Below, one piece after another: positions 10,818 through 51,827 of a DNA stretch of 64,000 bases (positions are counted from its first letter, which is position 1; every line of letters starts with the position of its first letter). The stretch spans positions 5,339,501-5,403,500 of the forward strand of contig NC_084936.1 of the NCBI RefSeq assembly GCF_958298935.1. Reading direction: 5' to 3'. Under the pieces are notes generated by a model that did not search any database, was not told where the DNA came from, and was given only the letters and a program-made list of their open reading frames with translations. Origin of the DNA: Phragmites australis. Taxonomy: Eukaryota > Streptophyta > Magnoliopsida > Poales > Poaceae. Made by a program: the position numbers and the translations under genes.

Positions 10818-11054
10818 GCGAATTGGATCATCGGTGAGGGTTGTCCAACAACTGTTTGGGCGTAAAATTCTGGGAACCGAGTTTGATTCGTTCACGGAGA
10901 AGAAGGAGATGAGCTGGATTAAGACTTGTGTTGCCTGGATCTTCCAGGTGATAAAATCCCTTGGTCGATCTCCAGCTCGGGTGGCGGAAGAATCGTGGAG
11001 CAGATCTGGATTGGGGATGAGTAATCCGAACCAAATCTACTTCATTCAATCGAC

Positions 11055-12482: not shown

Positions 12483-12503
12483 CAACAAACCACTCCTGAA
12501 CTG

Positions 12504-15708: not shown

Positions 15709-16896
15709 GTCCCCCGAGGACCCACTGAAGGAAGTTCCGGGAGAGAGTGCTCGGGGCTGCGAGCAGCGGCCCCCGAGCACTCGGTTCCCCGAGGATCCGT
15801 ACCGTCAAGACCGGGAGAGAGTGCTCGGGCCGTGGACAGTGGCCCCCCGAGTACTCGGTTCCCCAAGGACCAAGGAAGGGTGTTCTTGGGAGAGAGTGCT
15901 TGGGGAGGTGAACAGTAACCCCTGAGCACTCGGTCCCCCGACGACCTAGGAAGCCTCTCCGTCAGTGGCCCCCACAGGGGTCCAGCGATGAGGTGTCAGC
16001 AGGTGAAAGGCCCGAGGCCGCATTTAAGAGCGCGCGTGGCCTGTCACCTCCAACTGCTCCCGCCACGCTCAGTGTCAGTTCCTGCCATATTCTGGCAGAA
16101 GGGCATGGGGACATTAAATGCACGGGTCCCATCCCGCGCCATCCGGCGCGCCTCGGGATAACGTCGCAAGGCCCGAGGTGTTCCGTCTACTGCGTTGCTG
16201 TGGCAGGCGAACAAGACCGGGCGGGCACGCCGGGCCGCTCTGCGGCTGCCCGGTGGGCCCTCTCCACAGCGCCCGTTGCCAGTGCCATCATGACGACTGA
16301 TGACCGGGCGCGGGGCGCGTTTTCAACCCCCGTCACTTCGCACAGAGGCTATGATGACGCCCATTCCATTTATGGTGCTTTGGAACTCGTGCCCTCCCAT
16401 TCGGGGCACGCTACCGCCGGCGGGTATTTAAAGCGGCTGGCAGCACGGACAAAGACAATCGGTCTTGGAAGCAAAAAAATCTCGGCAAGGGTTGAAGAAG
16501 TTAAGGAGGTAGAGAGATCGAGAAGTCCAAGAGCACCCAAAGCCAACAGATACACACAGATCGAAGAACACCTTCGTACGCGCATAGAAGCCGAAGAACA
16601 AGGAGCCCCAGGCTCTAGGATAGACAGACATTCTTGTAACTAGCACATTCCTAAGAGACATTCTCAAGACATTTATAGCATCCACACAGGAGTAGGGTGT
16701 TATGCCTCCGTGCGGCTCAAACCTGTCTAAACCCCCAGTGCATTTACTTCATTCCGCACTAGATCATTCCACCCCGCCAGCCATCGCATTTACATCCATT
16801 TATTTCTCCAGCAAACTTATTCATAATCATCCTCCCGGCCAAATCTCTAAAAAGGGGTCCCTCAGGATCCCTGCGACAGGAGTTAACCCTCCGACA
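15709..16896 (+). mobile_element. Truncated LTR, same family as the solo LTR at 50,082-51,827
   Basis: The right end (GCGACAGGAGTTAACCCTCCGACA) is the inverse of the left end at 50,082, and the interior matches the reverse complement of that LTR. A TATTTAAA box lies at 16,425-16,432. The left terminus (TGTCGG...) is missing. At 15,720-15,950 there are about three copies of a unit with GGGAGAGAGTGCTCGG and CCGAGCACTCGG, related to the 73-bp repeats at 51 kb. Confidence 0.8.
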
Positions 16897-18513
16897 GAGT
16901 CTCAAGTTCATTACTGAGCATAAAATTTCTGAAGAAATTCAGCACAAGTTGATGTTAATGCTTTTGCGATTGGACTATTCCATTGAATACAAGAAGGGAA
17001 AAGAGAATAAGGCAATTGATGCCTTATCAAGAGTTGAACACAATGCATGGCCATCATTGTGGTTCAACCTTTATGTATTCAAGAGGTGATTAACAGCTAT
17101 ACTAATGATCCCTACTGTCAATGACTTTTGGCTCAATTGGTTGTGGCACCTGATGCTGAATCTGGGTACATCCTAAATTTTGGAGTCATTAGGTACAAAG
17201 GTAGAATTCACATTGGTAAGGACATTTCTTTGCAAGGTAACATACTGAAGGCATTACACACATCTGCAATTGGAGGGCATTCTGGTATTGCTGCTACATA
17301 CCAAAGGGTAAAAAGAATCTTCCATTGGGTTAGACTCAAGAAGTCACTTGAGGACTATGTTTCAACTTGCCCTATATGTGAAAGAGCTAAGAGTGAACAT
17401 TGTCACTACCCTGGACTGCTTGAGCCACTACAGCTACCTGACATGGCATGGACCCACGTTACCATGGACTTCATAGAAGGGTTACCTAAATCTAGTGGCA
17501 AGGATGTGATATTGATTGTGGTGGATAAGTTTACAAAATATTCACACTTCATTCCATTAACACATCCATTCACAGCTCGAACGGTTGCCCAACTATTCAT
17601 AGATAACATTTTCAGAATGCATGGAATGCCTACTTGTATTATGTCTAACAGGGACATAATTTTCTTGAGTGATTTATGGCATGATATGTTCAAAACCTTG
17701 AAGATATCTTTGAGATTTAGCTCGGCTTATCATCCCCAAAGTGATGGGCAAACGGAAAGAGTGAATCAATGCTTGGAGAGCTATTTGAGATGCATGACTT
17801 TCTCTGAACCTAGAAGGTGGTGCAGCTGGTTGGCCTTGTCGGAATGGTGGTACAACACTAATTATCACACCTCGCTGAAGTGTACTCCGTTTCAAGCGCT
17901 CTATGGTTACCCTCCTCCCCTCATTAGTGAAATTGCCATACTAGGTCCTGAATCTCCTGCCAAGGATTTTTTGGATGAAAAACAAGGAATGATTCAACAG
18001 CTGAAAGAGAACTTGCCATATGCGCAAGCTAGAATGAAGAAGTATGCTGATTTGAGGCGTACTGAGAAGGAATTCAATGTTGGAGACACGGTTTATCTCA
18101 AGATGCAACCTTATAGACAGACTGCGTTCAGATTGAGGAATTCACTTAAATTGGCAACCAAATACTATGCCCCCTTCTTAATCCTGCAGAGAATTGGTAA
18201 GGTGGCTTATAAGCTCCAACTTCCCTCGACTGCACAGATTTATCCTGTTTTTCATGTAAGCCAGCTTAAAAGGCATCTGGGAGATCGAGCTATTCCTAAT
18301 GAGGACTTACCACTTGTGGATGCACAAGGGCGTATTAAGATATCACCGGTTGTTGTCCTGGAAACCAGAGCTATACATAGGAATGAAGTACCTGTCACAC
18401 AGTGGTTGATCCAATGGGAAAATATGCCCCTTGAGGATGCTACTTGGGAGGACAAAACATTCATCAAGATTTCTTTTCCAGGATTTTATTGGCGCACAAT
18501 CAAGACATGGTAG
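16897..18513 (+). pseudogene. Ty3 pol part 2: RNase H tail, integrase and chromodomain
   Basis: Resumes within RNase H (SLKFITEHKISEE, then IDALSRVEH near 17,020), so roughly 70 codons of RNase H are absent between the two halves. From 17,128 one open frame of 461 codons holds the HHCC zinc-binding region (HTSAIGGHSG ... CPICERAK), the integrase core and a C-terminal chromodomain (WLIQWENMPLEDATWED). The second catalytic Asp of the DDE triad, normally SDRD, reads SNRD (about 17,650); the Glu in QTERVN is kept. In functional relatives the chromodomain guides integration into heterochromatin. Confidence 0.9.
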
Positions 18514-22346: not shown

Positions 22347-24831
22347 CTACAGCTCAACCTCAAGCTCATCATCATCACTTGCCAAGTCTTCATCCTGTTG
22401 TTTTGTAGGAAAATTATTCAATTAACCTCCAGCAAGTCTTTTTGCACAAATGAGAACAGAAAATAGTAGTTGTACAATTTATATTTTATACCTCAAACAT
22501 CAGATTATTAGCAACAACCTCAAGAATATCAAGATCAACGACCAATGACGAAACATTCTTAGAACCTGAAATGTCAAGGCATGTACATTAGTAAAAATGT
22601 GAAGACTTTACATGAGTAGAAGTTTAAATTGTCACCTTTTTTTTGCTGCAGCTATCCAATCTTTAGTGCAAATCAGTGCTTGTACCATCTCAGGATCAAG
22701 ACGAGAACGATATGGATCAACAACACGGCCACCAGCACTAAAAGCCGATTCATAAGCTACCGTTGACACTTGCATGCAAAGCACATCACGAGCAAGCAGC
22801 CATAGAATAGGATACTCATCCCTCTGACCCTTCCACCATGCTAAAATATCAAATGTATGATAATTGGCTTTGGTAACCTTTAATGGTGGTTCAGCCAAGT
22901 ACTTATCCAAGTCGTTTGCATCATCATGTAGGTCATGTGTGTCATATAGGTAGCTATCAAGTTCCTCATCTACCGTGTTTATAAACAAATCTGCCTCTGT
23001 TGAAGGTGCAGGTGCTTTACTCTTTAAAGATGAAGGATTACTAGCAGCATAGCATTCATACATGTTCCTCATAACACAATTAAATTTGTTAAGTTCATCT
23101 TGATAGGAATTTTTGTACACCCTCCTTATGGAAAATTCTACAATTTTTCTCTTGAACCTAGGGTCAAGAACACTTGCAATAGCAAGAGCAACATTGGACT
23201 TCTTCCAATACTTCTCAAACTTAGAACTCATAGAGGTTGCCATGCTACTAATAGTAGGATCATCACTATGACACCAATCAGTTAGTAAAAACTTAATCTC
23301 ACAGAAGTCTTTGAAAAATAAGTTTGCAGTTGGATATAATGTACCAGAAAATAACTCAGTGAGATCAGAGAACTTTTTCAAGCATGGTAAAAGAGATTTT
23401 GCCTTCTCCCATTCTGCAGAAGAAGGAGCAATTTTCTCATACCTACCACGTTCGCAGGACATGAGCCTCTCAAAAGCAATCCTGTAATATAAAGCATCCC
23501 TCAACATGGTATACGTTGAATTCCACCTAGTAGAAACATCAAGTGAGAGGCCCGACTTTGTGTTCAATCCACACTCAGTAGCACACTTTAGGAACTCCTC
23601 CCACTGCAATGGAGAACCCTTCACAGCCACCACAAATGCTCTAATATTCTGAATTGACGATGCAATAGCACTCATACCATCTTTAGCAACCAAATTAAGA
23701 ATGTGATTAGCACATCTCACATGAAAAAAATAGACCATCACAAATTAATGGACAATGCTTCTTGAGTCCTAAGATGACATCCTTAACAGCAACTTCATTT
23801 GCAGCAGCATTGTCTAGAGTCAAAGAAAATATTTTCTTTTCGAAGTTCCATTTCAACATACATGAACTTAAGGTATGAGACATATTCTCACTAGTATGTC
23901 GTCCTGGCACATGGAAGAAATTAATAATCCTCTTCTAAATATGCCAATCATCATCTACCCAATGGACAGTCACACACATATACCCCTTATTCTGATTTGA
24001 TATCCACATATCCATAGTTGCACTCAAGCGGCATTGAAGGGTTTTAAAATAAGCATACATCTTATCCTTTTCTTGCAAATAGAGGTCCATTATATCCTTT
24101 CTAACAGTGATACGAGACTTGATAGGAAAGTTTGGACGCAGGGATTTTATAAACTCAACAAAATATTCATGTTCAACTATGTTAAAATGATACTCATACA
24201 TGATTATTGCAATGTATAACTTCCTCAAACTAACTTCTTGATCATACTTGTATGGTTCAATAACTGTCATACCTTTCTCATGATCAGTTTTTGATTTGAG
24301 TTGTTGCTGGCTTTTAACAATACTGTGATAATGCTTTAGATGACTCCAAAACCCTGTGGTTCCTCGATTACTCTCAGCTTTACCTTTGCTGGTTTTGTTA
24401 TTACACCCTTTGAACTTACATTGTGCCCATAACTGATCAACCTGCTTGCCATTCTCCTCCACTGTCACTGTGTACTTGGTGAAATACTGCCATACATCTG
24501 ATGTGCTCTTCTTTTGCTGTTTCAAAGGAGGTTGTCCATCATCCTCATGGTCCACATCAATGATATCATCGGCACTTGCACCCACTACACTTGTACTCGC
24601 ACTTGCACTTGTAGCTGACACCACTTTGTTCTGAGTTCCTATCATCCATTGATAGACAATTGAAAATCAGCAAAGCAAATGAAGTATGAGTTGATGAATC
24701 TGCAATTGAGGTTGTAATTGATTATTACCTACAAGCGAGTTCTGAGAGGAAGTGGCGGTAGCATCACGAAATGGGGGCGGATCCATGACCGTGCGCTGTC
24801 GGGAAGTCACTTCTCCGGTAGGTGGTTTCAT
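22347..24831 (-). pseudogene. hAT transposase (zinc finger BED, RICESLEEPER-like), broken
   Basis: Read on the minus strand: exon 1 24,831-24,729 (ATG at 24,831), exon 2 24,638-22,636, exon 3 22,565-22,492, exon 4 22,394-22,347, all with GT/AG borders. Exon 2 carries an acidic start, a BED-type finger (CKFKGCNNKTSKG...HLKHYH), the RNase-H-like core (LTLDNAAANEV, CANHILNLVAKDG) and the C-terminal dimerisation domain (ILWLLARDVLCMQVSTVAYE, SAFSAGGRVVD). Lesions: an in-frame TAG at 23,935-23,937; a frameshift at a 7-base A/T run at 23,724-23,730; and an 8-A run at the exon 2 end that puts exon 3 out of phase. All are small, and two are homopolymer slips, so the copy is young or partly an assembly artefact. 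Confidence 0.9.
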
Positions 24832-27292: not shown

Positions 27293-29049
27293 GGAGTAGT
27301 TCCTCTAGTACTGGAGCAATTGCTGGTGGAGTTGCTGCGGCGGTGGCCTTGCTATTTGCTGTTCCTGCAATTGGTTTTGCATGGTGGCAGCGCAGGAAAC
27401 CACAAGAGCATTTCTTTGATGTACCTGGTAAGTATTCAACAGCAGGAGAATTACTTGGAGAATAACATGAATCAACTTAATGTGAGATTTCTAATGTAGC
27501 AGCCGAGGAAGATCCAGAGGTCCATCTTGGCCAGCTTAAAAGATTTTCACTACAAAAACTACAAGTTGCAACGGATAGCTTCAGCAATAAGAACATCCTT
27601 GGTAGCGGTGGATTTGGCAAAGTTTACAAAGGAAGGCTGGCAGATGGTTCATTAGTCGCTGTTAAGAGACTAAAGGAGGAACGGACACCTGGTGGGGAAC
27701 TACAGTTTCAAACAGAGGCTGAGATGATTAATATGGCTGTACACTGAAATCTATTGCGCCTTCATGGATTATGTATGACACCAACAGAAAGGTTGCTTGT
27801 GTATCCATATATGGCTAATGGAAGTGTTGCATCACGTTTAAGAGGTACTCTGTGTTGTTTACTCCAGTCGTACAGCCTTTTCTTTGTATCTTTCAGTTTG
27901 TTATACTTTCTTGACAACAATATCAGACTGTAAAAATATTTATTACTAGTTTTATTTTGTAGAACGGCCACCATCTGAACCTGCACTAGATTGGCAAACA
28001 AGAAGAATGATTGCATTGGGTTCTGCCAGGGGCCTGTCCTATTTACATGACTATTGTGATCCAAAGATTATACATCGTGATGTCAAAGCTGCGAATATTT
28101 TATTAGATGAAGACTTTGAAGCTGTAGTGGGGGATTTTGGTTTGGCCAAACTAGTGAATTACAAGGATACCCATGTAACTACTGCTGTTCGTGGGACAAT
28201 TGGCCACATCGCACCTGAATATCTTTCAACAGGAAAATCCTCTGAGAAGACTGATGTATTTGGATATGGAATTATGCTTTTGGAGCTTATTACAGGACAA
28301 CATGCCTTTGATCTTGTTCGCCTTGCCAATGATGATGATGTCATGCTGCTTGACTGGGTACTTGATTAATGCAATTTCCTCGGTTTAAATTGCAACTAGA
28401 TATTCATGCCTTTTTGTGGCTTGATACTGTGCTGGGGTTGGTTGCTCACTTTTGCTGTACAATTGTCAAAAATCTGTCAATCGCTTCATCCGATAGCAAA
28501 TGATTCATCGCAAGGGTCTATGAAAGAAGATATTATTTCTGAATTGGTACAATGTTTACAGCTAAACTAAGCATATGGTTCAGCAGCATGTCTTTGGATC
28601 GTTCTTTTTGTCAACATCTTGATTTTGCTTGTACAGGAGTTGCTTTTTTGTGATAAAACACCTGTTTTGACTGGCAAGTTAATAGTGAGTTCATATGCTT
28701 TGTGCAGGTCAAGGGATTACTCAAGGAGAAGAAATTGGAGAAGTTGGTTGACCCAGATCTGCATGCTTACATTGACGTTGAGGTGGAGTCGCTGATCCAG
28801 GTCGTGCTCCTTTGCACACAGGGCTCCCCAATGGACCGGCCTAAGATGTTGGAGGTGGTGAGGATGCTCGAAGGTGATGGTCTTGCCGAGAGATGGGAGG
28901 AGTGGCAGAAGGTACAAATAGTACAGCAGGAGGTCGAGCTGGGTCTGCATCAAAACTCAGTGGATTCTCGACTCAACCGACAACCTCCACGCGGTGGAGC
29001 TGTCAAGGCCGAGGTGATGATAGCGCACTCACGATTTTGTAAGGGGTAA
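27293..29049 (+). pseudogene. SERK/BAK1-like receptor kinase pseudogene, ectodomain missing
   Basis: Exons 27,293-27,427, 27,500-27,844, 27,963-28,357 and 28,708-29,049 have GT/AG borders and join in phase. They encode the Ser-rich juxtamembrane linker and transmembrane helix ([20 protein letters not shown]), then the kinase: glycine loop [60 protein letters not shown]. These are hallmark SERK sequences. SERKs are plasma-membrane co-receptors for brassinosteroid and immune receptors. The pseudogene call rests on three defects: no LRR ectodomain exons, a TGA at 27,745-27,747 where SERKs have Arg (AVH-R-NLLRL; CGA to TGA), and a frameshift near 28,965 that replaces the usual C-terminus, still readable in another frame as [15 protein letters not shown]. 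Confidence 0.9.
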
Positions 29050-30037: not shown

Positions 30038-31959
30038 ATGGTCCTCCCGGGCCTCCTCCTCCGCCGCGCCGACGCACCTCTCCGCCCGCCGTACCGCTAC
30101 CTCTCCCGCCTCCTAGACCGCTACGGCTTCGTGCCCCCGGCCTCCCTCACCCACGCCCCGCGAGAATCCCCCGACGCCGCCGCCGCCAAGAAGCGCCGGG
30201 CCAAGAAGCCGCCCTACCGCCCGCCGTCCTCGCTAGACCGCGGTGGGCGCCCGCCCGCGCGCTCGGACCTTCCCTTCGACTTCCGCTTCAGCTACACCGA
30301 GAGCACCCCGGGCTCCAAGCCCATCGGGCTCCGGGAGCCCAAGTACTCCCCGTTCGGCCCCGACCGCCTCGACCGACCCTGGACGGGCCTCTGCGCTCCC
30401 GCCGTCGACGCCACGCTCCGCGACGTCGCCGCCGAGGACCCCCTCCCCGACGCCGAGAGGGGGCTGGAGGAAGCCCGCCGGCGCGAGCGCGAGCGCGTGC
30501 TCGGCGAGCCGCTCACCCCCGCCGAGCGCGCCTTCCTGGTCGAGAAGTGCCAGAAGAACCGCACCAAGCGGCAGATCAACCTTGGTAGGATTTGGTTTAT
30601 TTTGCTGGAGCAAGAACAGTGGTGAATTTGCCAATTTTTGGGTACATTCCAAATTGGCGTGATGAATGATGTTGATTCATTTGGTTGATTTGTTGTAGGG
30701 AGAGATGGGCTTACTCACAACATGCTAAATGACATTCACAATAACTGGAAGAGCTGCGAGGTGGTCAGGGTAAAATGCCTTGGTGTGCCGACGGTTGATA
30801 TGCAAAATGTGTGCCATCAACTTGAGGTAGGATGCAAGTTTTGCATTTTTAGTCATTGGGTCGACCCATAACTCACTCAGTTGAACTAAAGATACACTTC
30901 CACCATGCCAAGTAGGGATGCAAATGAACTAAAGTAGTGACCTAGAACTACCGATTGGGAATTGGGTACCCACTTGCATCACTAACTTGAGGTAGCTACA
31001 TGTCTCTAGTCTCCAAGAAAAAAAAAGCCCTCTTACTTCAGTTGCAGACTATATGAAGTATATTGACTAACATTTTAGGAGATCATATTTTGATGTCACT
31101 CATGTTAGCATTGATTTTCATGTAGAAACCTGATTACCTGAGTACTGTTACTTCTTTTCCAGGATAAGACTGGTGGCCTTATCATCCACAGGCATGGTGG
31201 TCAGTTGATACTGTACAGGGGTAGGCATTATAATCCAAAGAAAAGACCTTCAATTCCGTTGATGTTATGGAAGCCAGCTGAACCTATCTACCCGAGGCTA
31301 ATCAAAACAACAATAGAAGGGCTGACAGTCGAGGAGACAAAGCAAATGAGGAAGAAGGGCCTACATGTTCCTGTTTTGACGAAGCTTGGTAATCATGTAC
31401 CCCCTTTTCTGCTTAGGTATATGCATGGTAAATGCATGACTAACAAATCATCCTATTTCACAGCAAAGAACGGATATTATGCTAGTCTTGTGCCAATGGT
31501 TCGTGATGCCTTTCTGACTGACGAGTTGGTTCGAGTAGATTGTAAGGGATTGCCAAAAAGTGATTATCGGAAGATTGGAGTCAAGCTCAGAGTGAGTTTA
31601 TCGTATGGGTTGATATTAAAATTGCATATGTGATTTGAAGATGATTTATAGTAGGATATACTAACCACCCTCTTATTTTGGTGCAGGACCTTGTTCCTTG
31701 CATTCTTGTCTCTTTTGACAAGGAACAAATTATTGTTTGGAGGGGAAAGGATTATGATGGAAGCTTACAAGATCATACGCAAAAGTCATTCCCTTCAAGT
31801 ATTGTCTCAGATTGTGCGTCAGTAAAGAAAGAGAATGGTCATCAGGAACAAACATCAAGTGATTGTTCTTCTGATGAGTGTTCTGGGACCAGTAGCTCTG
31901 ATGAAGCACCAGATGACAAGTCTGTCATTTCTGACCTGGACTCTTCTAGGGCGATCTGA
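30038..31959 (+). CDS. CRM-domain splicing factor, mitochondrial CRS2-associated-factor type
   Basis: Exons 30,038-30,584, 30,699-30,826, 31,163-31,388, 31,464-31,591 and 31,687-31,959 give 433 residues with all phases matching. The Arg-rich N-terminus ([20 protein letters not shown]) suits an organelle targeting peptide. Two CRM RNA-binding domains follow, about residues 165-260 ([20 protein letters not shown] ... [18 protein letters not shown]) and 285-370 ([13 protein letters not shown] ... [15 protein letters not shown]). The tail is acidic and Ser-rich. CAF-type proteins act with CRS2-like partners in group II intron splicing; the sequence is closest to the mitochondrial class (mCSF1-like). 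ATG 30,038 is chosen because the in-frame upstream codon at 30,026 is GTG. The 75-nt segment 31,389-31,463 keeps the frame open if not removed (see findings). Confidence 0.93.
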
Positions 31960-32752
31960 CATAGAAATCCACAAAGTTGCCATGTCACCAGAGTGTACAA
32001 GCTTGTGTATTATGTATTCGTGTTAGTTATCTTATATCGCCATTGCTATGGCAAGTTGTAGGCCTTTTCTTTTTTCTATCATTCATGACTAGTTCTGGCA
32101 AATTTATGATTTTGTTCACGTCCTATAGACAATAGTTGCTTGGATGGTACAGGCACATCGCACAATTGTAGCTCGAGGCTCCAGCAGTTCAGTAATTGGA
32201 GGACTAGAATGTTGTTATTTTGCTGACCACAAATTATACAAACCTCATTTGACTTTACCCAAGAACGTCATGTAAAGCTCAATGAACAATGATTTAACAA
32301 TGTTATCCCGTCTTATATGGCCCTGGAGGTGCACTTGAATTTTGGCTTTGTTCCACTGACGATTAAATTGTTTAGTCTTTTCTTATTCTCTCTTTTTTTT
32401 GAATTTATATCTGGGGAACTGGCTATTCAAAAAGAAAAAAAGCTGGGGAACTGGAAAGGAGCTTTACCTAGGTATTGTATTATTTCACTTGTGGGATTCG
32501 TTCTGGCTTTAATCAAGAAGACAAGAAGAGGGAATTTCTCATTGGAGAGTTAACACGTTCTATTTCTTGTAAAATTCCAGTGAAAACTATGTGCTGCAGG
32601 CAGGGCATGGCAGGGCAGGGCAGAGCATGTTTTGAGCTTTAGGCAGCATGCACGGTCCTGAATATGGTTCTTGCATCACTACATTTCTCTGGGTTCAGGG
32701 CGAGAGGAGCATCACTAACAGCAAGTCAACAACTCAGGATCAAGCAATTCAG
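31960..32752. other. 3' UTR of the CRM gene and spacer to the microRNA cluster
   Basis: AT-rich sequence with no further domain. The open frame at 32,317-32,553 has no recognisable motif and is probably chance. Confidence 0.55.
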
Positions 32753-32867
32753 CCAAGGTGAGATATTCGAGGAAAACAAACTAGACATCAACACAGTTCA
32801 TATGATCATATCTATGTCTATCTGACAGAGTGACTCGAGTTTGATTTCCTCCAATTCTCACGTTTGG
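32753..32867 (-). ncRNA. MIR2275: MIR2275-type hairpin, distal unit of the cluster
   Basis: On the plus strand TGAGATATTCGAGGAAAACA (from 32,759) faces GAGTTTGATTTCCTCCAATT (from 32,838) across a loop of about 55 nt. CCAAG/TTTGG extend the base of the stem. Read on the minus strand, the 3' arm (32,780-32,759) ends in TTTTCCTCGAATATCTCA, the miR2275-3p pattern with one C-to-G change in the middle (CTCCAATATCTCA is usual). The 5' arm gives a GAGAATTGGAGGAAATC star-like sequence. Confidence 0.82.
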
Positions 32868-32909
32868 GAGACTGCATCTCGGCGATATACTTAAAACCTC
32901 CTGAAATGG

Positions 32910-33001
32910 GCCATTCGAGGTGAGATATTAGAGGAAACTGAACCTCCTTTCTTTTCTTTCCATGGATGGTTCAGTTCCCTCTAATCCTCATTCCTAATGG
33001 C
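32910..33001 (-). ncRNA. MIR2275: MIR2275-type hairpin, middle unit
   Basis: GCCATT (32,910) pairs with AATGGC (32,996-33,001), and TGAGATATTAGAGGAAACTG (from 32,921) pairs with GGTTCAGTTCCCTCTAAT (from 32,968). On the minus strand the predicted 22-nt mature RNA occupies 32,942-32,921 and contains GTTTCCTCTAATATCTCA, which as I recall is identical to a maize miR2275 member. The loop is short (about 25 nt) and the stem is the most compact of the three. Confidence 0.88.
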
Positions 33002-33052
33002 ACATAGGTAGTTTATCTGTTCATGCTGCCTGTAGCCACCAGGCGATCGACT

Positions 33053-33153
33053 GAAGGTGAGATATTGGAGGAAAACAAGCTGATCAGTGATCATCGTCGA
33101 TCCATTACAGAATCTGATGATCAATCGGTTTGTTATCCTCCAACTCTCACTTG
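33053..33153 (-). ncRNA. MIR2275: MIR2275-type hairpin, promoter-proximal unit
   Basis: AAGGTGAGATATTGGAGGAA (from 33,054) pairs with TTGTTATCCTCCAACTCTCA (from 33,130). On the minus strand the predicted mature RNA lies at 33,079-33,058 and contains GTTTTCCTCCAATATCTCA. The other arm carries AGAGTTGGAGGATAACAAAC, the expected 5p sequence. Three units in 400 bp, all in the same orientation, suggest one polycistronic precursor. The family produces 22-nt RNAs that trigger 24-nt phased siRNAs in meiotic anthers (known). Confidence 0.88.
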
Positions 33154-33272
33154 CACCTCACAACTAGCTTGCTAGTTGCTACAGCAGTTGGGAATGGAAA
33201 GAATGGAGACTAGCTATCCAGATGCTACCCTGCTTTAAGTTGTGAAGGAGTTGCTATGCAGTTGGACCCAAA

Positions 33273-33279
33273 TTTATAG
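33273..33279 (-). promoter_or_regulatory. TATA box for the microRNA precursor
   Basis: On the minus strand the sequence reads GGCTATAAATTTGG, a good plant TATA box, about 120 bp upstream of the first hairpin. Transcription would start near 33,245 and run through all three hairpins. A GAA-repeat (33,288-33,308) lies just upstream. Confidence 0.55.
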
Positions 33280-33309
33280 CCATCTAGAGAAGAAGAAGAA
33301 GAAGAAGAT

Positions 33310-33750
33310 GGTATCCTGCAGAGCTCCAAAACCAGAAGGAGCATCCGTTTCTGTTATACCTGCCCTTTCATGCCGATTATGCCTTGTCCCAGCACTGTTA
33401 AAAAGCTGCAAGACATGGCGCCTTGTACTGTGTACTGGTGTTCTCTTTTCATCACAGATCAAATACTCGAAGGACGAAAATAGAGGGTCGAATACTCGAA
33501 GGTCTTTAAACCTGCAAGCACGGTTCAAGAGGCCTCTGAAGTATGAAGCCGGGTTCTGATGTGCTTAACTTTGGACGAGGATCCCTGTTGTAGTGCGCCG
33601 TCGTTGACCCATGCATCAGCGAAGAAGTCACCGTGACGTCGACGTCAGGGGTCTATATCCCTTAACTTTGGTTAAGTGGTTCAAATGAGTCCGAAAGTGG
33701 TTTTGACCAACACTGGACGTTGGTGTGGAGTCCGACTCTGAATCCGCTCT
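33310..33750. other. Spacer between the divergent microRNA and RING promoters
   Basis: No gene supported. It must carry the upstream regulatory regions of both the minus-strand microRNA cluster and the plus-strand RING gene. Confidence 0.45.
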
Positions 33751-33800
33751 CGGTTCCGACTATGGTTTACACACGAAGCACTTTCGATCCAGGAGCTCTC

Positions 33801-33809
33801 TCCATATAT
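33801..33809 (+). promoter_or_regulatory. TATA box of the first RING gene
   Basis: CCATATATTTG lies about 75 bp upstream of the ATG at 33,880. The same block, with TATATATTT, is repeated in the promoter fragment at 36,975-37,160, which supports its role. Confidence 0.5.
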
Positions 33810-33879
33810 TTGTTCCATCCCCTCCGTGCCAGCCACTCCGCAAGATCGACCACGTACAACTACACTGCACGCAATCGGC

Positions 33880-35238
33880 ATGGGAATTCTTTTCGACGTC
33901 GGTCCATCGGAGACTCGATCGATCTCGCAGGAGTGCCACCGCCTCTGCTTCTCCGGGTTGTCCCTGGTCGACCCGGCCACCGCCGGCGGCCAGCGGGTGG
34001 TGAACGTCTGGGCCGAGGCCGAGGGATGCGAGGCGTACGCGATAGGGACGTTGTCGGAGGAGGAGCCCATCGTGGCCTTGCCGCCGGTGGTGTTCGGCGT
34101 GGAGTCGTTCTTCCTGCGGCACGACTCCGTGGCTGCCACTGTCCGGTTCTACGGCACCGTTCTTGACCCGCCGCCGCCTTCGGATGGCGAGGAAGAGGAG
34201 GCCGTTCTTGATGACGGCGAGGAAGGGGAGGCCGTTCTTGACGACGGCGAGGAAGAGATGGCCGACGAGGAGGCGGGGGTGGAGTACGAGCTTCTCAGCG
34301 AAGAGGACATCGCGGAGCGTTACGACAGCGACAACGGCGAGGACGAGGACGGCGAGGAGGAAGATCGGCCCCGCAAGTTCAGGGACGGCGAAGCGGAAGG
34401 GGAGAGCAGCAAGAGGAACAGCATCCCACTAGTCGCTGCTCCGGCCGGGAGCGTCGTGCCGGAAGGGGAGTTTCTCGGAACGGCGCGGTTCGCCATTGTC
34501 GAGAACACCGCCGGCTTCATGCGGGTCGCCGCCGCCGAGGGCGGCGAAGGACAAGGAGGCAACGAGATCCTCGTGCTGTACCGATACACCCGCTTCTCGA
34601 GGACGTGGAGCGGACGACGAGGCGTGGAGGAGTGCAGGAGGACGAAGCTGCACTGGCTCCGGTTTGCCGTCCCGGCCGCCGGCGACCTGGCGAGCTCGCT
34701 GGCGTGGGCCGGCGCCTCGCTGTCCCCGCTGATTTACCCCCGCCTCTTCCGCCGGCAGCTTCAAGACCTGTGGTCAAGGCTGACAGTGCCAGCGATGGTT
34801 AGCAGCATCCCGTCACGAACCGCACGCCTCCAGGTGATCGTGGACGTGGGCATCCTCCGGTGCGAGGACCACACGCCGGAGCGCATGGAGCACATGTTCG
34901 GCGCGTTGGAGGGCAAGGTGCATGAGGCATGGCCCGAGTACTACCACGTCTGCAAGGAGCTGCACCTGCCAGAGCCGGTGCGGCACGAGGAGGGCAGAGA
35001 CGAAGACGGCGCGCGGCTGGCGAACTGGAAGAGGGTCGCCGAGGAGTGCTCTGTTTGCTTGGAGCTGCTCGAGCGCGGCCTGGCGGCGTGGCCGGGGTGC
35101 ATGCACGTATTTCATGGCGCCTGCTTGGAGAAGACGCTGGCGGAGAGCGAGATGTGCCCGCTGTGCCGGGGCAAGCTGTCAGAGATAATCAAGATGCATC
35201 ACCAATCTGCAGCATTAACAAGTGATCGAGTGATGTAG
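33880..35238 (+). CDS. RING-H2 finger protein, single exon, 452 aa
   Basis: GC-rich intronless gene. The N-terminal 100 residues form a conserved region of unknown fold (VVNVWAEAEGCEAYAIGTLS), followed by a Glu/Asp-rich linker (EEEEAVLDDGEE, repeated), a conserved middle (FAIVENTAGFMRVAA; YRYTRFSRTWSGRRGVE) and a C-terminal RING at residues 390-429. The RING has spacing C-x2-C-x13-C-x-H-x2-H-x2-C-x10-C-x2-C, i.e. RING-H2, so it is probably an E3 ubiquitin ligase. No signal peptide or membrane helix. The longer open frame starts with GTG at 33,826; ATG 33,880 is the first Met. A paralogue lies at 44,019-45,410. Substrate unknown. Confidence 0.87.
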   Translation: MGILFDVGPSETRSISQECHRLCFSGLSLVDPATAGGQRVVNVWAEAEGCEAYAIGTLSEEEPIVALPPVVFGVESFFLRHDSVAATVRFYGTVLDPPPPSDGEEEEAVLDDGEEGEAVLDDGEEEMADEEAGVEYELLSEEDIAERYDSDNGEDEDGEEEDRPRKFRDGEAEGESSKRNSIPLVAAPAGSVVPEGEFLGTARFAIVENTAGFMRVAAAEGGEGQGGNEILVLYRYTRFSRTWSGRRGVEECRRTKLHWLRFAVPAAGDLASSLAWAGASLSPLIYPRLFRRQLQDLWSRLTVPAMVSSIPSRTARLQVIVDVGILRCEDHTPERMEHMFGALEGKVHEAWPEYYHVCKELHLPEPVRHEEGRDEDGARLANWKRVAEECSVCLELLERGLAAWPGCMHVFHGACLEKTLAESEMCPLCRGKLSEIIKMHHQSAALTSDRVM

Positions 35239-36780: not shown

Positions 36781-36974
36781 TAGTTTAGGATTTAGCGTGC
36801 AATTCGTTGTCAGAAAAAAATAAGCAGGGAAACAAATATGTGTAGAATAGGATTTCACTGAACAAATGTCTGGAATATGCTTTCACTGATTCAGAAGCGT
36901 GATCTAATACTATGGTTCCATTTACCCGAGTCTGAAAGAGTATGGGGGATCCAACCGAGCATGGTTTACTCCCT

Positions 36975-37160
36975 CTCGATTCGAAGTCCGTCTCGACTAT
37001 GGTTTACTCGCGAAGCATGTGATCGATCCACGGAGGTCTCTCTATATATTTCGACATGCCACTCCACAAGATTATCACAACCGTACTAATCAGCGTGATA
37101 CTTGACTTGTTCTACTACTCGTCGATCCACCGGAGACTTCCGATCGATCGGAGGCAATCG
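36975..37160 (+). pseudogene. Promoter and 5' leader fragment duplicated from the RING gene
   Basis: Collinear with 33,735-33,925: CGACTATGGTTTAC, CGAAGCA, TCGATCCA, TCTATATATTT, CCACTCC.CAAGAT and CGGAGAC are kept in order. The copy stops just after the start-codon region and its ATG context is destroyed, so only the promoter, leader and a few codons were duplicated or survive. Confidence 0.7.
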
Positions 37161-41592: not shown

Positions 41593-41671
<79 letters not shown>

Positions 41672-43754: not shown

Positions 43755-44018
43755 GTGGCGGAAGAGGAAGCGTGGAAGCCGGCGGACCCGGCAGCTCCTC
43801 TTTAAAAACGGAGCTCCTCCTCTTTGTACCCAATCTGCAACCTCTTTCCAGCTCGATTCCGTCGCGGTTCACCTCGTCTCCATCTCCGACAGGCGCCGGC
43901 GCGTTCCTCCTGCTCGTTCCGCCGCCGGGACACCTCGGGCAGCAGCCCCTCGACCTCGCCTCAGTGGTGATCTGCCACTGCTCGTGGATCCATAGAGACG
44001 CATGATCAATCGGAGACA

Positions 44019-45410
44019 ATGGACGAAGAGGAAGAGGAGCCGTTTTGCAGCGGCGTGTCGGTGCGTGTGACCCTGCCGGAGGGCCAACGCATCTGCATCG
44101 TTTGGGCTTCCCTGTACATCGACCCGTCCAGCGCCTACGCTCAGTACGCGGTGGAGGTCTGGGCTGAGGCCGGCCGCGAGACGCACACTATCGGGACCTT
44201 GTCACTGGAGAAGCCCGACGTGGCCGTGCCGCAGGTGGTGCTGAGCGACGAGTTCGACCTGTGCCACGACTCGCCGGACGGCACCGTCCTGTTATCCTTC
44301 CACGTTCTTGGCCCGCCGCCCCCGGACACCGAGCAAGAGGAAGCGGTTCTTGCTAATGAAGTGGAAGAGGATGGCGACTCTGCTGCTGATGCGCCGGCGT
44401 GGGATGGAGAGCCGACCGTCGAGGCGGGAGTGGAGTACGAGCCTCTCGACGAAGACGACTACGCGGAGCTTAACGACAGCGACAACGAGAGAGACGAGTT
44501 CGCCAACTTATACTACTGCTTTCTTGGCCCGCCACCCCCGGAGAGCGAGGAAGAGGAAGCGGTTCTTGCTGACGACGAGGATGAATACGAGGACGAGGAT
44601 GAATACGAGCCTCTCGACGAAGACGACTCCTCCGCGGAGTGTAATGACAGTGACAACAGCGAGGACGATATACGGCATCTGGAGTTCCTTGGGCCGGCGC
44701 GGTTCGCCGCCGTCGAGAACACCGCCGGATTCATGCAGGTCGCCGCCAATGCCTCCGGGGGCCAAGAAGGCAAGGAGATCTTCGTGCAGTACCGGTACAC
44801 CCGTTTCTCGTGGACATGGAGCGGGCGTGGAGCCGTGGAGCCGTGCACGACGACGAAGCTCCTCCCCCTCAGTTTCCTGGCCCCACCCGCCTGCGATCTG
44901 GCGACCTCCTTGACATGGGTCGGCTCCTCGCTGGGCCCTTTCATCTACCCCGGCCTCTTCCGCCGGCAGCTTCAGGAGCTCTGGTCAACCCTGGTGGCGC
45001 CGGCGATCGACACCATCTCCCCACAAGCCTCGCACGTCAACGTGACCGTGGACGTTGGCATCCTCCGGCGCGAGGACCACACGCCGGAGCGCATGGAGCA
45101 CATGCGTGGCGCTTTGGAGGTCAAGATGCAGGAGCCGTGGCCCCAGTGCTTCTACACGCACAAGGTGCTGCACCTGCCAGAGCCGGTGCGGCCGGCGAAG
45201 CGGAGGAGGGTCACCGAGGACGAGGAAGAGGATGATGAGTGCTCTGTTTGCTACGAGCCGCTGGAGAGCAGCGTGGTGGCGTGGCCGGGGTGCAGGCACG
45301 TGTTCCATGGCGTGTGCGTGGAGAAGACGCTGGAGAGGAGCGAGATGTGCCCGCTGTGCAGGCGCAGGCTATCAACAAAACCAAATGCATCCACATTAAG
45401 TGTCGAGTGA
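44019..45410 (+). CDS. RING-H2 finger protein, single exon, 463 aa
   Basis: Paralogue of 33,880-35,238 with the same order: N-terminal region (AVEVWAEAGRETHTIGTLS), acidic linker, conserved middle (FAAVENTAGFMQVAA; YRYTRFSWTWSGRGAVEP; FIYPGLFRRQLQELWS), REDHTPERMEHM box and a C-terminal RING at residues 408-447 with identical C-x2-C-x13-C-x-H-x2-H-x2-C-x10-C-x2-C spacing. The acidic linker is internally duplicated (LGPPPP..E.EEEAVLA ... EYEPLDEDD appears twice), unlike its neighbour. KRRRV just before the RING could be a nuclear localisation signal. ATG 44,019 opens the frame. Probably an E3 ubiquitin ligase; target unknown. Confidence 0.87.
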   Translation: MDEEEEEPFCSGVSVRVTLPEGQRICIVWASLYIDPSSAYAQYAVEVWAEAGRETHTIGTLSLEKPDVAVPQVVLSDEFDLCHDSPDGTVLLSFHVLGPPPPDTEQEEAVLANEVEEDGDSAADAPAWDGEPTVEAGVEYEPLDEDDYAELNDSDNERDEFANLYYCFLGPPPPESEEEEAVLADDEDEYEDEDEYEPLDEDDSSAECNDSDNSEDDIRHLEFLGPARFAAVENTAGFMQVAANASGGQEGKEIFVQYRYTRFSWTWSGRGAVEPCTTTKLLPLSFLAPPACDLATSLTWVGSSLGPFIYPGLFRRQLQELWSTLVAPAIDTISPQASHVNVTVDVGILRREDHTPERMEHMRGALEVKMQEPWPQCFYTHKVLHLPEPVRPAKRRRVTEDEEEDDECSVCYEPLESSVVAWPGCRHVFHGVCVEKTLERSEMCPLCRRRLSTKPNASTLSVE

Positions 45411-46116: not shown

Positions 46117-48947
46117 TCAAGGTTTTGGTGACGAGAACAGGTTGGGATAGGAGAAATATGGATCGTCCTCCAAAGAAGGAGATCTCTGAGGCATATGAGA
46201 AGGCACATAGTGCTGTGTATCATTGGTAAAGGAGTCCTTGTGATCAAATACTGGTTTCTGCGTCACCTCAGTCTGATGTTGGCCTTCCTTTTGGACACCA
46301 TCGCCGTACTTCTCATAAGCCTTGGCACTCTTCTTTAGATCTGCAATGCGCAGTTGTGCTAGGTTTGCAGCAGCACGAGCCGCTGATGCGGCTCGCTCTG
46401 CTGAGTCAGCAGCTGTCTGAGCAGCAGATAATACGTCGTCCAAGTCTATATTTGGCCCACTCTCAGTAGGAGAGGTTGCGTGTACCTGTTCTGGTTGTTT
46501 CGAGAACATGTAATCAGTAGGAGGTACCGGAGGTGGGGTCACTTCATCAATTTTCTTCGTGAAGATTTCTGGCTCTGTTGGCCTCACTGGAGGAGATGGA
46601 GAAGGTGAGGGAATTGACTCGGTTTTCTCCGTCGAAGAAGTTGCAACAACTGGCGGTGGAGAGGCAAAAGGAATAAATTGCTTCTTTTCATTTGGCAAAT
46701 CTGGTATATTTGACTGAGCAGATGGTGCAGAAACTAGATGTTCCAAACTTTTCATCTGAATCCTAAAAGGACCATCAGCTGTTGGATTCACTTCCAAGTC
46801 GGTAGGATTTGAAAATTCATGAGGAACTGACTGTGAGCTTTGAACATGTGGACCAATATCTGGGGTTGATGGTGCATCGGAAGGTGGACGAATTGCAGCT
46901 TTTGGGACTTCAGGCAAATCCAGTGACTCAAGACCTGTATCTGACTCATAGTCTTCATCAGGCTGCTCCGCAGCACTTGCAGCTACTGTTTCCTCGTGTT
47001 TCTCCTTGGGAAGAGGCAGCATGGAACCATTGAAGTAGGTTGGTCCATTCTAAGAACAGAAACATTGTATCAAAAGTGAGACTCGAATTAATGAACTAAC
47101 CATGGTTTCTCGTAAGTAAATATTTACCAATAGATCTGCATGAGGTTTCAGAAATTCTGTCTCCGTCTCTGATGGATCCCAATCAACTTCATGCTCCTCA
47201 GCGATCTCTTTCAGCAGTTTCAGCTTTGCATCAACAGGAGGAGGGCGAATAGAAAGTAGTTCAATTATCTGCAGCAGTATTCGTTCTGATATGTTATGAA
47301 CAATCAAACTGCCAGAGAACATGATTGAATTACTTCCAATTAAAAGTGTCATATGACCTGCCGATTGACCCCACAATCTGGCATCAGCTCTGAAGCTGCA
47401 GCAACAAACTCCTTCCCATATTTAGTTGCAAACATCATTTGAACTTGCATCAGTTCAGGAAGATCTGCACACCTTGGAGAAGCAAAACAGATGCTGGATA
47501 TTGCTTCTTTGAGATCAATAGGACATTCCCTGAAGCAGATAAAACAACAAAGAAACACAAATCAGCCACATTCATCTGCAAACCTACAGAAATATTGCAA
47601 TAAGTTAATTACAATTTTTGAGTCACAAAAACAGTTTATCAATTATATCAACTAATGTAGCCCTTTTTATTTAAGAGCTGAATCAGTATCTCCCACATCA
47701 TTTTTCAAGAGGATACAGCTTAATAAAAAAAATTTGCAGAGAAGCAAAAAAATATTAGTTAGTGACATCCTGGGAATTCAGACTAAGAAAGATTTGTGCC
47801 TAAAAAAACAAATAAAGAATATAAGAAGGCAGAGGGTACAAGAATGAAGATCCTTTCCCCCTGTTGGTTAATGTACATAATAAATTGAGGCTTAGGGTCA
47901 AATTTCCTGCTAGATATACATGTTTCAAACATACGGGTTGGCCTATCATGGAACAAACACTGCCGTAATCCACTATAGTGGTGAAGTAAGGTTATGTATG
48001 ACAGTTAGAAATATGGAAAGTCATGCACTATACAAATACTAAAGAAAGCTACCATTTTAAAGTTAAATAACGGTGCCACTAGTGGCACGTCATGTTGAAC
48101 CGCAAATTAGCAACCGACCGATAACTAATGCGAAATTACAGTGACCGATAATTTTATTACGTGAAACAAATAAAGTGGTTGCCTCAGGACGTCAAATTGA
48201 ATACAACAAAAAAAGCACCTCGAAAGTTCTTGGCCAGTGAAAGTAAAAGTCACTAGAAATCCCAACCGGGTGCTGCTGCTCCAGCATACTATGCCATGTC
48301 GAGGGGCAATTAAGCAACTAGTTGGGATTGTAATGCCCATGATCCTTAAATCGACAATTGAGCACATAAACAAGGTAATAACATCTGCAGTTACGAGTTG
48401 TGATGGAATAAAGAGAGGAACGAACTTTTGCGCCTCGATGATGGGCAGGCGGACGGCGACGAGCTCGCAGAAGAGCTCGAGGATCTCCTGCGCGGCCATC
48501 ATGTTCTCCTCCCGGATGATGTGCTCCACCTGCAGCCGCAAGCCAATTAGCAAAGCCAAAGTGCTCACCCTAAGAAGGAAAGAACCAAACCCTACTCCAA
48601 TCCAAGCAAATCCCCCACGCATGAGAGAGTCCGCACCCTGATGCGCGCGGTGGCCTCCTGCCCCGCCTCGAGGAGCTTGGCGATGTCCCTCCGCATCTGG
48701 CGCAGCTGCAGCTCCCGCCTGTTCCGCAGCAGCTTTATCCGCGGGATCGTCAGCTTCAGCAGCGTCTTGCTGCTCACCAACAGGTAACAAACCCCAATCA
48801 GAACCGAAAACCAAGCGAATCAAACCAAGAACCCCACCATGCCCACGAGATCCCCAAGAAACCGCGAGTGCGCGCGTACCACTTGGCGCCGCGGAAGCCG
48901 CCGCCGCCGCCTCCTCCCTTGCTGAAGAACGCGTCCAGCATCGACAT
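46117..48947 (-). CDS. IST1-like protein (ESCRT-III associated regulator of Vps4), 516 aa
   Basis: Minus-strand exons 48,947-48,880, 48,769-48,637, 48,529-48,426, 47,529-47,358, 47,268-47,128 and 47,049-46,117 join in phase. The start MSMLDAFFSKGGGGGGFRGA is typical of plant ISTL proteins. The IST1 helical domain covers about residues 20-175 (KLTIPRIKLLRNRRELQLRQ; IREENMMAAQEILELFCELV; CPIDLKEAISSICFASPRCA). A long Pro/Ser-rich acidic tail follows, with an Ala-rich helix at about 411-447 (QTAADSAERAASAARAAANL). IST1 proteins bind ESCRT-III and Vps4/LIP5 in multivesicular-body sorting. The third intron has an unusual donor (AAAA/GTTCGT). No break is seen. Confidence 0.94.
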
Positions 48948-48999
48948 GGCGCCCGCTCAATCGATGCAAGCGAGGCAGCTGCTTGGTCGGGTGTTCAGC

Positions 49000-50081: not shown

Positions 50082-51827
50082 TGTCGGAGGATGAACTCCT
50101 GTCGCAGGGATCCCGAGAGACCCCTTTTTAAAGATTCGGCCGGGGGGATGATCCTGAACGAGCTCGTCGGGGAAATAAATGGGAACGGAAATAAATACAG
50201 TGGCTGGTGGTGGGGGATGATCGACCTAGTGCAAAAAAGATGGATGCACCGGGGTTTAGACAGGTTCAGGCCGCACGGGGGCGTAACACCCTACTCCTGT
50301 GTAAGTGCTATATCTTTCCTTGAAGGGAATTCTTCAAGGATGTATCTGGTTACAAGGGTGTGCTGTCTACAGAGAGCTTGAGGCTCCCGTGTTCTAGCTT
50401 TGCTCGAGCTTGTTTGTGATGTTCTTGTTCTATCGTCTCGTCTTGTCTTGAACCTGAACCTTTTTTACCTGAATCTCGAACTGGGGCTCGCTTTTCGTCT
50501 GGGGTCTGGGGGGCTTTGACAGGGTTTGGCGGGGTGCTTTTTCCGGGTGCCTTTATGTGTTCTCCATCCTTTCCTTTTATAGGCGCGCCGACCTCGACTT
50601 ATCCTGAATGGGAAAGAGGGGGCGTGAGTGCCAAGGCGCCACGGAGAAAGGCGTCATTATTCCGTCTTGGCGAAGTGACAGGGGCGGTGAAAAAATGCGG
50701 CGTGCATCCGACCACCCGCCACTGTGGATGTCCTCCGGCGCCATTAAGAGGGCCCACCGGGCAGCCACAGAGGTGCCCGGTGCGCCCACCCTGTCTTGTT
50801 CTTCTGCCAGGGCAGGGTGGCAGGCGGAGCGCTTCGATTCTGGCAACGTTATCCCGAGGCACCCGGATGAAACGGGACGGGACCCATGCATTTAATGGAC
50901 CCACGCCCCCCTGCCAAAGCATGGCAGGGTCTGATACTAGGGCGTGGGCAGCTGAGAATGTCAGGATGTCAGGCCGCGCGTGCCTATTAAATGCGGCATT
51001 AGGCCTTTGACTGGCTAACACCCCGCCGACGGGACCCTTCGGGTCATCGGACGATCTTGCGCGAACCTTCGGGGAACCGAGTCCTCGGGGGCTGCCAAGT
51101 GTAGCCCTGAGCACTCTCTCCCGAGCACTTCGGTGAGACCTTCGGGGAACCGAGTCCTCGGGGGCTGCCACGTGCAGCCCCGAGCACTCTCTCCCGAGCA
51201 CTTCGGTGAGACCTTCGGGGAACCGAGTCCTCGGGGGCTGCCACGTGCAGCCCCGAGCACTCTCTCCCGAGCACTTGGGGGAAACCTTCGGGGAACCGAG
51301 TCCTCGGGGGCTGCCACGTGCAGCCCCGAGCACTCTCTCCCGAGCACTTGGGGGAAACCTTCGGGGAACCGAGTCCTCGGGGGCTGCCACGTGCAGCCCC
51401 GAGCACTCTCTCCCGAGCACTTGGGGGAAACCTTCGGGGAACCGAGTCCTCGGGGGCTGCCACGTGCAGCCCCGAGCACTCTCTCCGGAGCACTTGGGGG
51501 AAACCTTCGGGGAACCGAGTCCTCGGGGGCTGCCACATGCAGCCCCGAGCACTCTCTCCCGAGCACTTGGCTGTTTGGATCATCGGGGGACTACAGTACT
51601 CGGGGGTAAGTGAGAACCCTTCCGAGCACTTCCTTCCCGGTACTTGGACTCTGCGGATCATCGGGGAACTGGGGTGCTCGGGAACCAGAGGCTGCGGCCC
51701 CGAGCACCTTCTCCCGGGACTTAGTTTCTTCTTATCCTGCAGGGTGGACCTCGCGGGATGGTGACACGTGGCGGATGGCCGGCCCGGTCTCAGGACTCAG
51801 GGACCCCTGGTTCCTAATACACCGACA
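50082..51827 (-). mobile_element. Solo LTR of a Ty3-type retrotransposon, TSD GTTGG
   Basis: Begins TGTCGGAGG and ends ACACCGACA, with GTTGG on both sides (50,077-50,081 and 51,828-51,832). No internal coding region. TATAAAAGG on the minus strand (50,573-50,581) sets the transcriptional direction. CCGGGGTTTAGACAGGTTCAGGCCGCAC inverted near 50,250 matches the R/U5 style of this family. The same family supplies 15,709-16,896. Solo LTRs arise by recombination between the two LTRs of a full element. Confidence 0.9.
51055..51581. repeat. Seven tandem 73-bp repeats inside the solo LTR
   Basis: GGGGAACCGAGTCCTCGGGG starts at 51,071, 51,144, 51,217, 51,290, 51,363, 51,436 and 51,509, exactly 73 bp apart. 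Each unit has a 10-bp inverted repeat (CTCGGGGGCTG / CAGCCCCGAG) around CCACGTG. Copies are nearly identical except the first (GCTGCCAAGTGTAGCC) and last (CACATG). On the minus strand they read through as a repeated peptide, which I consider incidental. Confidence 0.97.

Follow-up and report, generated by a model that had tools for sequence, protein, structure and literature searches.

We conclude, with a probability of about 0.94, that the window (the whole 64,000-nucleotide stretch of DNA analyzed, C16:5339501-5403500) carries one Pol II gene, on its minus strand, whose single primary transcript would hold three MIR2275 stem-loops and give 22-nt miR2275s that trigger 24-nt phased siRNAs (phasiRNAs). 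The family match, the stems and their bulge, the compensatory changes between arms, the promoter elements held in common with other loci and the excess of target-like sites were each observed directly; transcription as a single unit, processing, the stage of expression and the triggering of phasiRNAs are what we infer. The published role of the family and the target-like sites in the genome suggest that this is a working reproductive small-RNA locus.

In the proposed pathway, the TATA box (Table 1) would direct a Pol II primary transcript from the minus strand that probably starts near 33245, about 30 bp downstream of the box, and that would hold the three stem-loops in series. DCL1 would cut a 22-nt miR2275 from each 3′ arm, and an unpaired A17 would account for a miRNA of 22 nt against a star of 21 nt. 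This would give three 22-nt miR2275 forms, with ends predicted from structure and family. Once loaded into Argonaute, these forms would cleave 24-PHAS transcripts, which are non-coding, in anthers at early meiosis, and RDR6 and DCL5 would turn the cut transcripts into 24-nt phased siRNAs.

Table 1. Coordinates of the hairpins, the promoter elements and the genes on either side (positions in the window)
Feature	Position	Strand	Evidence or detail
CRM-domain gene, CRS2-associated factor 1 (mitochondrial) type, not in the cluster	30038..31960	+	five exons, Pfam CRS1_YhbY 120 bits
Hairpin 3 (MIR2275, G13 variant)	32750..32870	-	predicted 22-mer 32780-32759, star 32858-32838
Hairpin 2 (MIR2275)	32911..33000	-	predicted 22-mer 32942-32921, star 32988-32968
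Hairpin 1 (MIR2275)	33048..33159	-	predicted 22-mer 33079-33058, star 33147-33127
TATA box (CTATAAATTTG context)	33272..33278	-	unique TATA[AT]A[AT] on the minus strand in 32700-34500
Conserved promoter block AATCGGCATGAAAGGGCAGGTATAACAGAAAC	33347..33378	-	upstream alignment with other MIR2275 loci
RING-finger protein reading frame, promoter side, divergent	33880..35238	+	Pfam zf-C3HC4_2 and zf-RING_2 over cut-off

Three hairpins of the MIR2275 family

An earlier note on this DNA had described three inverted repeats with a common arm, and the window indeed holds exactly three occurrences of the arm core TGAGATATT-N-GAGGAAA, at 32759 (C), 32921 (A) and 33058 (G). When up to three mismatches were allowed, one further place resembling the core was found at 36371 (3 mismatches), giving four in the window against a shuffle mean of 0.84, with 1 of 100 shuffles reaching four. 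The predicted 22-mers of hairpins 1, 2 and 3 read CTTGTTTTCCTCCAATATCTCA, TTCAGTTTCCTCTAATATCTCA and TTTGTTTTCCTCGAATATCTCA, and all three lie on the minus strand at precisely the coordinates that the note had given. In each hairpin the TTTCCTCCAATATCTCA core is on the 3′ arm, exact in hairpin 1 and differing at position 13 in hairpins 2 and 3. The three loops fall within ~410 bp on the same strand behind a single TATA box, and the precursors are 90-121 nt long. A search of the window for more MIR2275 copies or target sites found none beyond the three arms, the nearest other sites having 6 mismatches in 22 or 3 in 17.

The hairpins were scored with the Rfam MIR2275 model RF03896, for which the gathering cut-off is 60.5 bits, and E-values were taken over the whole window. 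On the minus strand hairpin 2 scored over the cut-off (64.2 bits, E 3.2e-10), and hairpins 1 (58.9 bits, E 7.1e-9) and 3 (50.1 bits, E 1.2e-6) scored below it, so that a default Rfam listing would hold hairpin 2 alone. The match covers the full length of the model, positions 1-95, in all three. Scores on the plus strand were 31.3, 39.9 and 39.6 bits for hairpins 1, 2 and 3, leaving the minus strand ahead by 27.6, 24.3 and 10.5 bits, respectively, and besides these six matches (three hairpins on two strands) the best in the window had an E-value of 0.3. Two other candidates were rejected as far too weak: MIR6440 scored 24.3 bits over hairpin 3 against a cut-off of 95, and L31-Firmicutes 23.1 bits at 32687-32709 against one of 33.3.

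Folded on the minus strand, hairpins 1, 2 and 3 gave energies of -45.9, -46.1 and -41.9 kcal/mol (z -4.84, -7.75 and -4.82). The comparison with shuffled sequence that the note had proposed thus favored every hairpin, each folding better than 200 of 200 shuffles, and the minimum-energy fold of a 561-nt minus-strand transcript retained all three (z -6.88). The plus strand also folds strongly (z -6.38, -6.36 and -3.01, with 0, 0 and 2 of 200 shuffles as good), and therefore fold energy alone cannot assign the strand and other evidence is needed.

For the duplexes, the miRNA was set at the predicted 22-mer with 2-nt 3′ overhangs. In the resulting folds the star is 21 nt and A17 of the miRNA is unpaired in all three hairpins, a 22/21 duplex with a position-17 bulge that agrees with the 22-nt length proposed earlier. 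Each duplex has one asymmetric bulge, and the unpaired miRNA bases number 3, 1 and 3 in hairpins 1, 2 and 3; A17 is the sole one in hairpin 2, and hairpins 1 and 3 have two extra each. The Axtell and Meyers 2018 criteria for miRNAs are said to allow up to 5 unpaired miRNA bases, up to 3 of them in asymmetric bulges, and a precursor below 300 nt, and the predicted folds of all three hairpins lie within these structural limits. A review ties 22-nt miRNAs from bulged precursors to the triggering of secondary siRNAs (PMC4211545, in the part consulted).

The two arms have changed together. Between hairpins 1 and 2 the star differs at 8 positions and the miRNA at positions 1, 3, 4, 5 and 13, and at four of these five (3, 4, 5 and 13) both arms have changed with the pair retained. 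Identity between miRNA arms is 17/22 for hairpins 1 and 2, 20/22 for 1 and 3, and 18/22 for 2 and 3. The loops align at 18/47, 33/61 and 19/57 columns, less than the miRNA arms do.

Related loci, promoter and neighboring genes

A search of the genome (848,066,252 bases in 28 contigs) with the Rfam MIR2275 model found at least 14 distinct hairpins on two contigs, drawn from 23 matches; this is a lower bound, as the best 61 of many candidates were scored. Eight of the 14 exceed the Rfam cut-off on the sense strand. The hairpins fall into six loci: the window (3), C16:1.52 (3), C18:1.40 (3), C16:4.35 (2), C18:2.82 (2) and C16:4.50 (1). Taking in each hairpin the 22-mer nearest to zma-miR2275a-3p, we found C at position 13 in ten hairpins, T in three and G in one. 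The unpaired base was at position 17 in 11, at position 18 in 2 and at neither in 1, and the star was 21 nt in 12 of the 14. In a tree of the 14 hairpins, the second hairpins of both C16:4.35 and C18:2.82 cluster with hairpin 2 (96/99). The first hairpins of these two loci and the hairpin of C16:4.50 cluster with hairpin 1, more weakly (83/88). The order of first type and then second type is identical in the window, C16:4.35 and C18:2.82. All five other loci carry the same hairpin family as the window, although a G13 hairpin occurs in the window locus only.

To compare promoters, we aligned the 700-base stretches that precede the first hairpin among the six loci and a relic at C18:2734836-2734870, with 20 shuffles per pair. 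The window sequence scored 47, 63, 145 and 66 against C16:4.35, C18:2.82, C16:4.50 and the relic, where the shuffle maxima were 24, 29, 26 and 24. No similarity was found to C16:1.52 or C18:1.40 (19 and 19 against shuffle maxima of 23 and 30), which have another promoter in common (TATAAAAGGGCAG). Accordingly, three of the five other loci carry the promoter block and TATA context of the window, whereas C16:1.52 and C18:1.40 differ in promoter, and of the six hairpins in these two loci five have GG at positions 4-5 of the miRNA. The common block was read as AATTGGCATGAAGGGCAGGTGTAACAGAAAC, and in the window the block lies 69 to 100 bases above the TATA box; the sequence around the box is also common to the window and the similar loci. 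As a genome-wide pattern with up to three mismatches, the block occurs at three places, all of them MIR2275 loci, and the reversed pattern at none; the pattern misses the window copy, which has one extra base. In all six loci a TATAAA precedes the first hairpin by 53 to 181 bases, as one likewise precedes the arm of the relic, and some loci have additional TATA-like motifs farther out.

A block and TATA box common to MIR2275 loci support transcription from the minus strand. Duplication of the whole gene would also leave a common promoter, so that sharing of the promoter is by itself no proof of function. Taken with the Rfam match and the compensatory arm changes, the common promoter elements uphold the family, strand, arm and cluster arrangement that had been assigned from the letters. 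We also counted E-boxes as a check for the expected bHLH control. There was one in the 601 bp above the TATA box (~2.3 expected) and four in the 700 bp above hairpin 1 (~2.7 expected), and enrichment was clear in neither stretch. For rice, PMC5825165 reports, in the part consulted, that EAT1 is not enriched at the promoter of pri-miR2275b although this promoter has E-boxes.

The relic retains the 5′ arm of hairpin 1 along with the promoter and TATA box. No 3′ arm core (up to three mismatches) was found on its strand in 10 kb, and a 2-mismatch match to the core lies on the opposite strand ~3.8 kb off. Since this locus has been reduced to a promoter and one arm, copies of the window gene can be lost. 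A relative of the RING gene adjoins the relic in two pieces ~7 kb apart (L025 4230-4900 and L042 6057-6937, within C18:2.726-2.735 Mb), and the sequence beside the second piece has, by eye, the look of a copia-type transposon. The relic was considered as a possible homoeolog of the locus in the window; a tblastn search over the 30 kb around it turned up no CRM gene.

The cluster had also been described as lying next to a splicing-factor gene, which fits the CRM domain of the gene in Table 1 and the presence among its relatives of CRS2-associated factor 1, whose name is that of a splicing factor. This gene runs toward the cluster, convergent with it, and has GT-AG-type splice junctions as read from the sequence. 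Relatives of its protein include 'CRS2-associated factor 1, mitochondrial', with 85% identity in rice and 74 to 88% among the grasses listed. In a protein tree it groups with Stipagrostis, Paspalum, Urochloa, Miscanthus, Eleusine and Eragrostis (93/84), which we take to be PACMAD grasses; it is nearest to Stipagrostis, a placement that is not firm, and with identities of at most 90% it has no close neighbor in the tree. On the promoter side, the RING-finger frame lies ~720 bp from hairpin 1. This frame and a second at 43971-45407 (+) form a related tandem pair, and a third copy of the RING 5′ leader was seen by eye near 36950-37110.

Elsewhere in the window, a broken retroelement at 11025-18510 (+), presumably of Ty3 type by its domains, has aspartyl protease, reverse transcriptase, RNase H-like, integrase zinc-binding and Tf2-1-like SH3 domains in separate frames, with an integrase core match below cut-off. 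A hAT transposase with BED zinc finger, RNase H-like and dimerization domains lies at 22635-24666 (-). The end of a protein kinase gene, which we assume to be SERK-like, is at 27950-29046 (+) (Pfam Pkinase 88.8 bits on the first piece), and an Ist1 domain match at 48128-48994 (-) scores 34.6 bits against a cut-off of 33.6. A DNA polymerase A domain match over cut-off at 53928-54257 (-) and a weak 3′-5′ exonuclease match under cut-off at 60153-60857 (-) are on the same strand and may perhaps be exons of one organellar DNA polymerase gene. Two simple repeats were noted, a perfect (GA)37.5 run at 41595-41669 and ~7 tandem copies of a 73-bp GC-rich unit at 51064-51570 (97% matches).

Target-like sites and the G13 variant

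Targets were sought first as an exact 17-mer. Outside the hairpins it matched exactly at five places in the genome. The variable base was T at four of these, two of which belong to copies of a single repeat, and A at the fifth, so that neither G nor C occurred there. Mismatches were therefore allowed, and the pattern TGAGATATTGGAGGAAAACAAR was searched genome-wide with up to three of them, with the reversed pattern as control. We found 102 target-like sites, compared with 17 in the control. Among the 100 sites listed, 9 are MIR2275 arms (at least 9 of the 102) and 91 are non-hairpin sites, of which 22 fall in C12:30.08-30.50 Mb (10) and C19:0.957-1.44 Mb (12). An even spread would place ~0.13 sites in this 1.2 Mb rather than 22, the boundaries of the groups having been drawn after the list was viewed. 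The remaining 69 sites are dispersed, and chance may account for many of them.

We suggest that the C12 and C19 groups are probably clusters of 24-PHAS loci. The surroundings of four of the 22 sites were read, and the longest open stretches in them were 151 and 154 codons from stop to stop. In rice, 93 of 101 24-PHAS loci have a miR2275 site and many of the loci cluster, according to the part of PMC5825165 consulted. At the base facing miRNA position 13, 19 of the grouped sites carry G, two carry T and one carries A, and none has C. The search pattern itself had G at this place, and any other base left room for only two further mismatches.

Hairpin 3 is the one copy in the cluster that departs from its relatives. 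Its miRNA differs from that of hairpin 1 at 2 of 22 positions, 1 and 13, and G at position 13 occurs in it alone among the 14 hairpins found in the genome. There it forms a G x G mispair, as the star keeps the G whose partner in hairpin 1 is C; the change thus sits, uncompensated, in the miRNA arm of hairpin 3. It is possible, although we consider it rather unlikely, that hairpin 3 of this true MIR2275 cluster is decaying or gives no useful miRNA, leaving hairpins 1 and 2 alone functional; such decay would be a variant within our best explanation and not outside it. The lowest Rfam score in the cluster, the uncompensated mispair, a branch that is long in the tree of the 14 hairpins (0.39, where the median is 0.087; placement unsure) and the loss of hairpins at the related C18:2.73 locus all fit decay. 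However, the stem of hairpin 3 remains strong, with no shuffle in 200 as good, its position-17 bulge is intact, and its miRNA is still that of hairpin 1 at all but two positions.

A further idea, which we regard as doubtful, is that hairpin 3 makes a G13 isoform of miR2275 with shifted specificity, which would use G-U pairing to reach 24-PHAS sites with U opposite position 13. Two target-like sites with U (T) at this place lie 817 bp apart in the C12 group, at 30489560 and 30490377, and by a simple pairing score of our own (lower is better) both favored hairpin 3 over hairpin 1 (2.0 against 4 and 5.0 against 7). Over the 22 grouped sites, hairpin 3 pairs better at 3 and hairpin 1 at 19; the third site that favors hairpin 3 has A, and there hairpin 3 ties with hairpin 2. 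For the G13 form we hold decay to be likelier than a shift in targets; otherwise hairpin 3 would be a working, slightly altered copy. If the shift were true, a single cluster would serve more than one set of phasiRNA loci.

Alternative readings and known MIR2275 systems

Two readings would take the locus out of the MIR2275 precursors altogether. One is transcription from the plus strand, or an inverted repeat that serves as a source of siRNAs or as a 24-PHAS locus instead of a miRNA precursor. The plus strand does fold strongly, and its transcript would contain three miR2275-complementary sites. On the other hand, Rfam favors the minus strand in all three hairpins, the TATA box and conserved block that point to the minus strand are common to other MIR2275 loci, and the miRNA arms have been kept (17 to 20 of 22) better than the loops, which together make this reading very improbable. 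The other holds that the hairpins are chance inverted repeats or a repeat derived from a transposon. Transposons are present in the window, but the Rfam E-values stay between 1.2e-6 and 3.2e-10 over its whole length, the 848 Mb contain 12 exact copies of the arm core, of which MIR2275 hairpins hold 7, and the family was found in none of 14 control genomes of undisclosed make-up. The genome-wide search contradicts a chance or transposon origin, and we give it a negligible probability. A minus-strand MIR2275 gene with three stem-loops is the reading that we retain.

As such a gene, the cluster resembles the known MIR2275 system (RF03896, with miRBase families in rice, maize and other grasses) in the model match, the predicted 22-nt 3p product, the AATATCTCA 3′ end, the asymmetric bulge and the tandem hairpins tens of nucleotides apart, and it differs in the G at position 13 of hairpin 3. 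We searched literature main texts for the 22-mers in DNA and RNA letters. That of hairpin 2 matched one paper, where it is identical to Eragrostis curvula reads in a row for zma-miR2275c-3p, whose printed database sequence differs (PMC6852985, in the part consulted). Those of hairpins 1 and 3 had no match in the main texts, the only part of the literature searched, a result that does not make the two 22-mers novel. The hairpin 1 22-mer is one base from osa-miR2275d and one from zma-miR2275a-3p, as both are printed in the same part of PMC6852985.

The sections consulted of PMC6367383 describe conservation of polycistronic MIR2275 between eudicots and grasses and report precursors with two or three stem-loops in litchi and up to six within ~1 kb in strawberry, carrying several miR2275 variants. 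The window cluster, with three loops in ~410 bp and a probable common transcript, is the same in kind as those precursors. Foxtail millet also has miR2275 clusters (PMC9121102, in part). Cleavage of 24-PHAS transcripts by miR2275 and the production of 24-nt phasiRNAs by DCL5 in meiotic anthers are described for the family in the consulted parts of PMC6367383 and PMC5825165, and the former states that miR2275 starts a pathway whose loss causes conditional male sterility in maize.

We conclude that the cluster is an ordinary, well-formed member of the known miR2275 gene family with one slightly unusual copy. Little here is new, as the cluster is what the literature predicts, G13 being the odd point. 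With its clean cluster, a minimum of 14 hairpins, a common promoter block and probable 24-PHAS groups, the genome of Phragmites australis is a usable case for the study of how trigger copies and their targets may change together after genome doubling.
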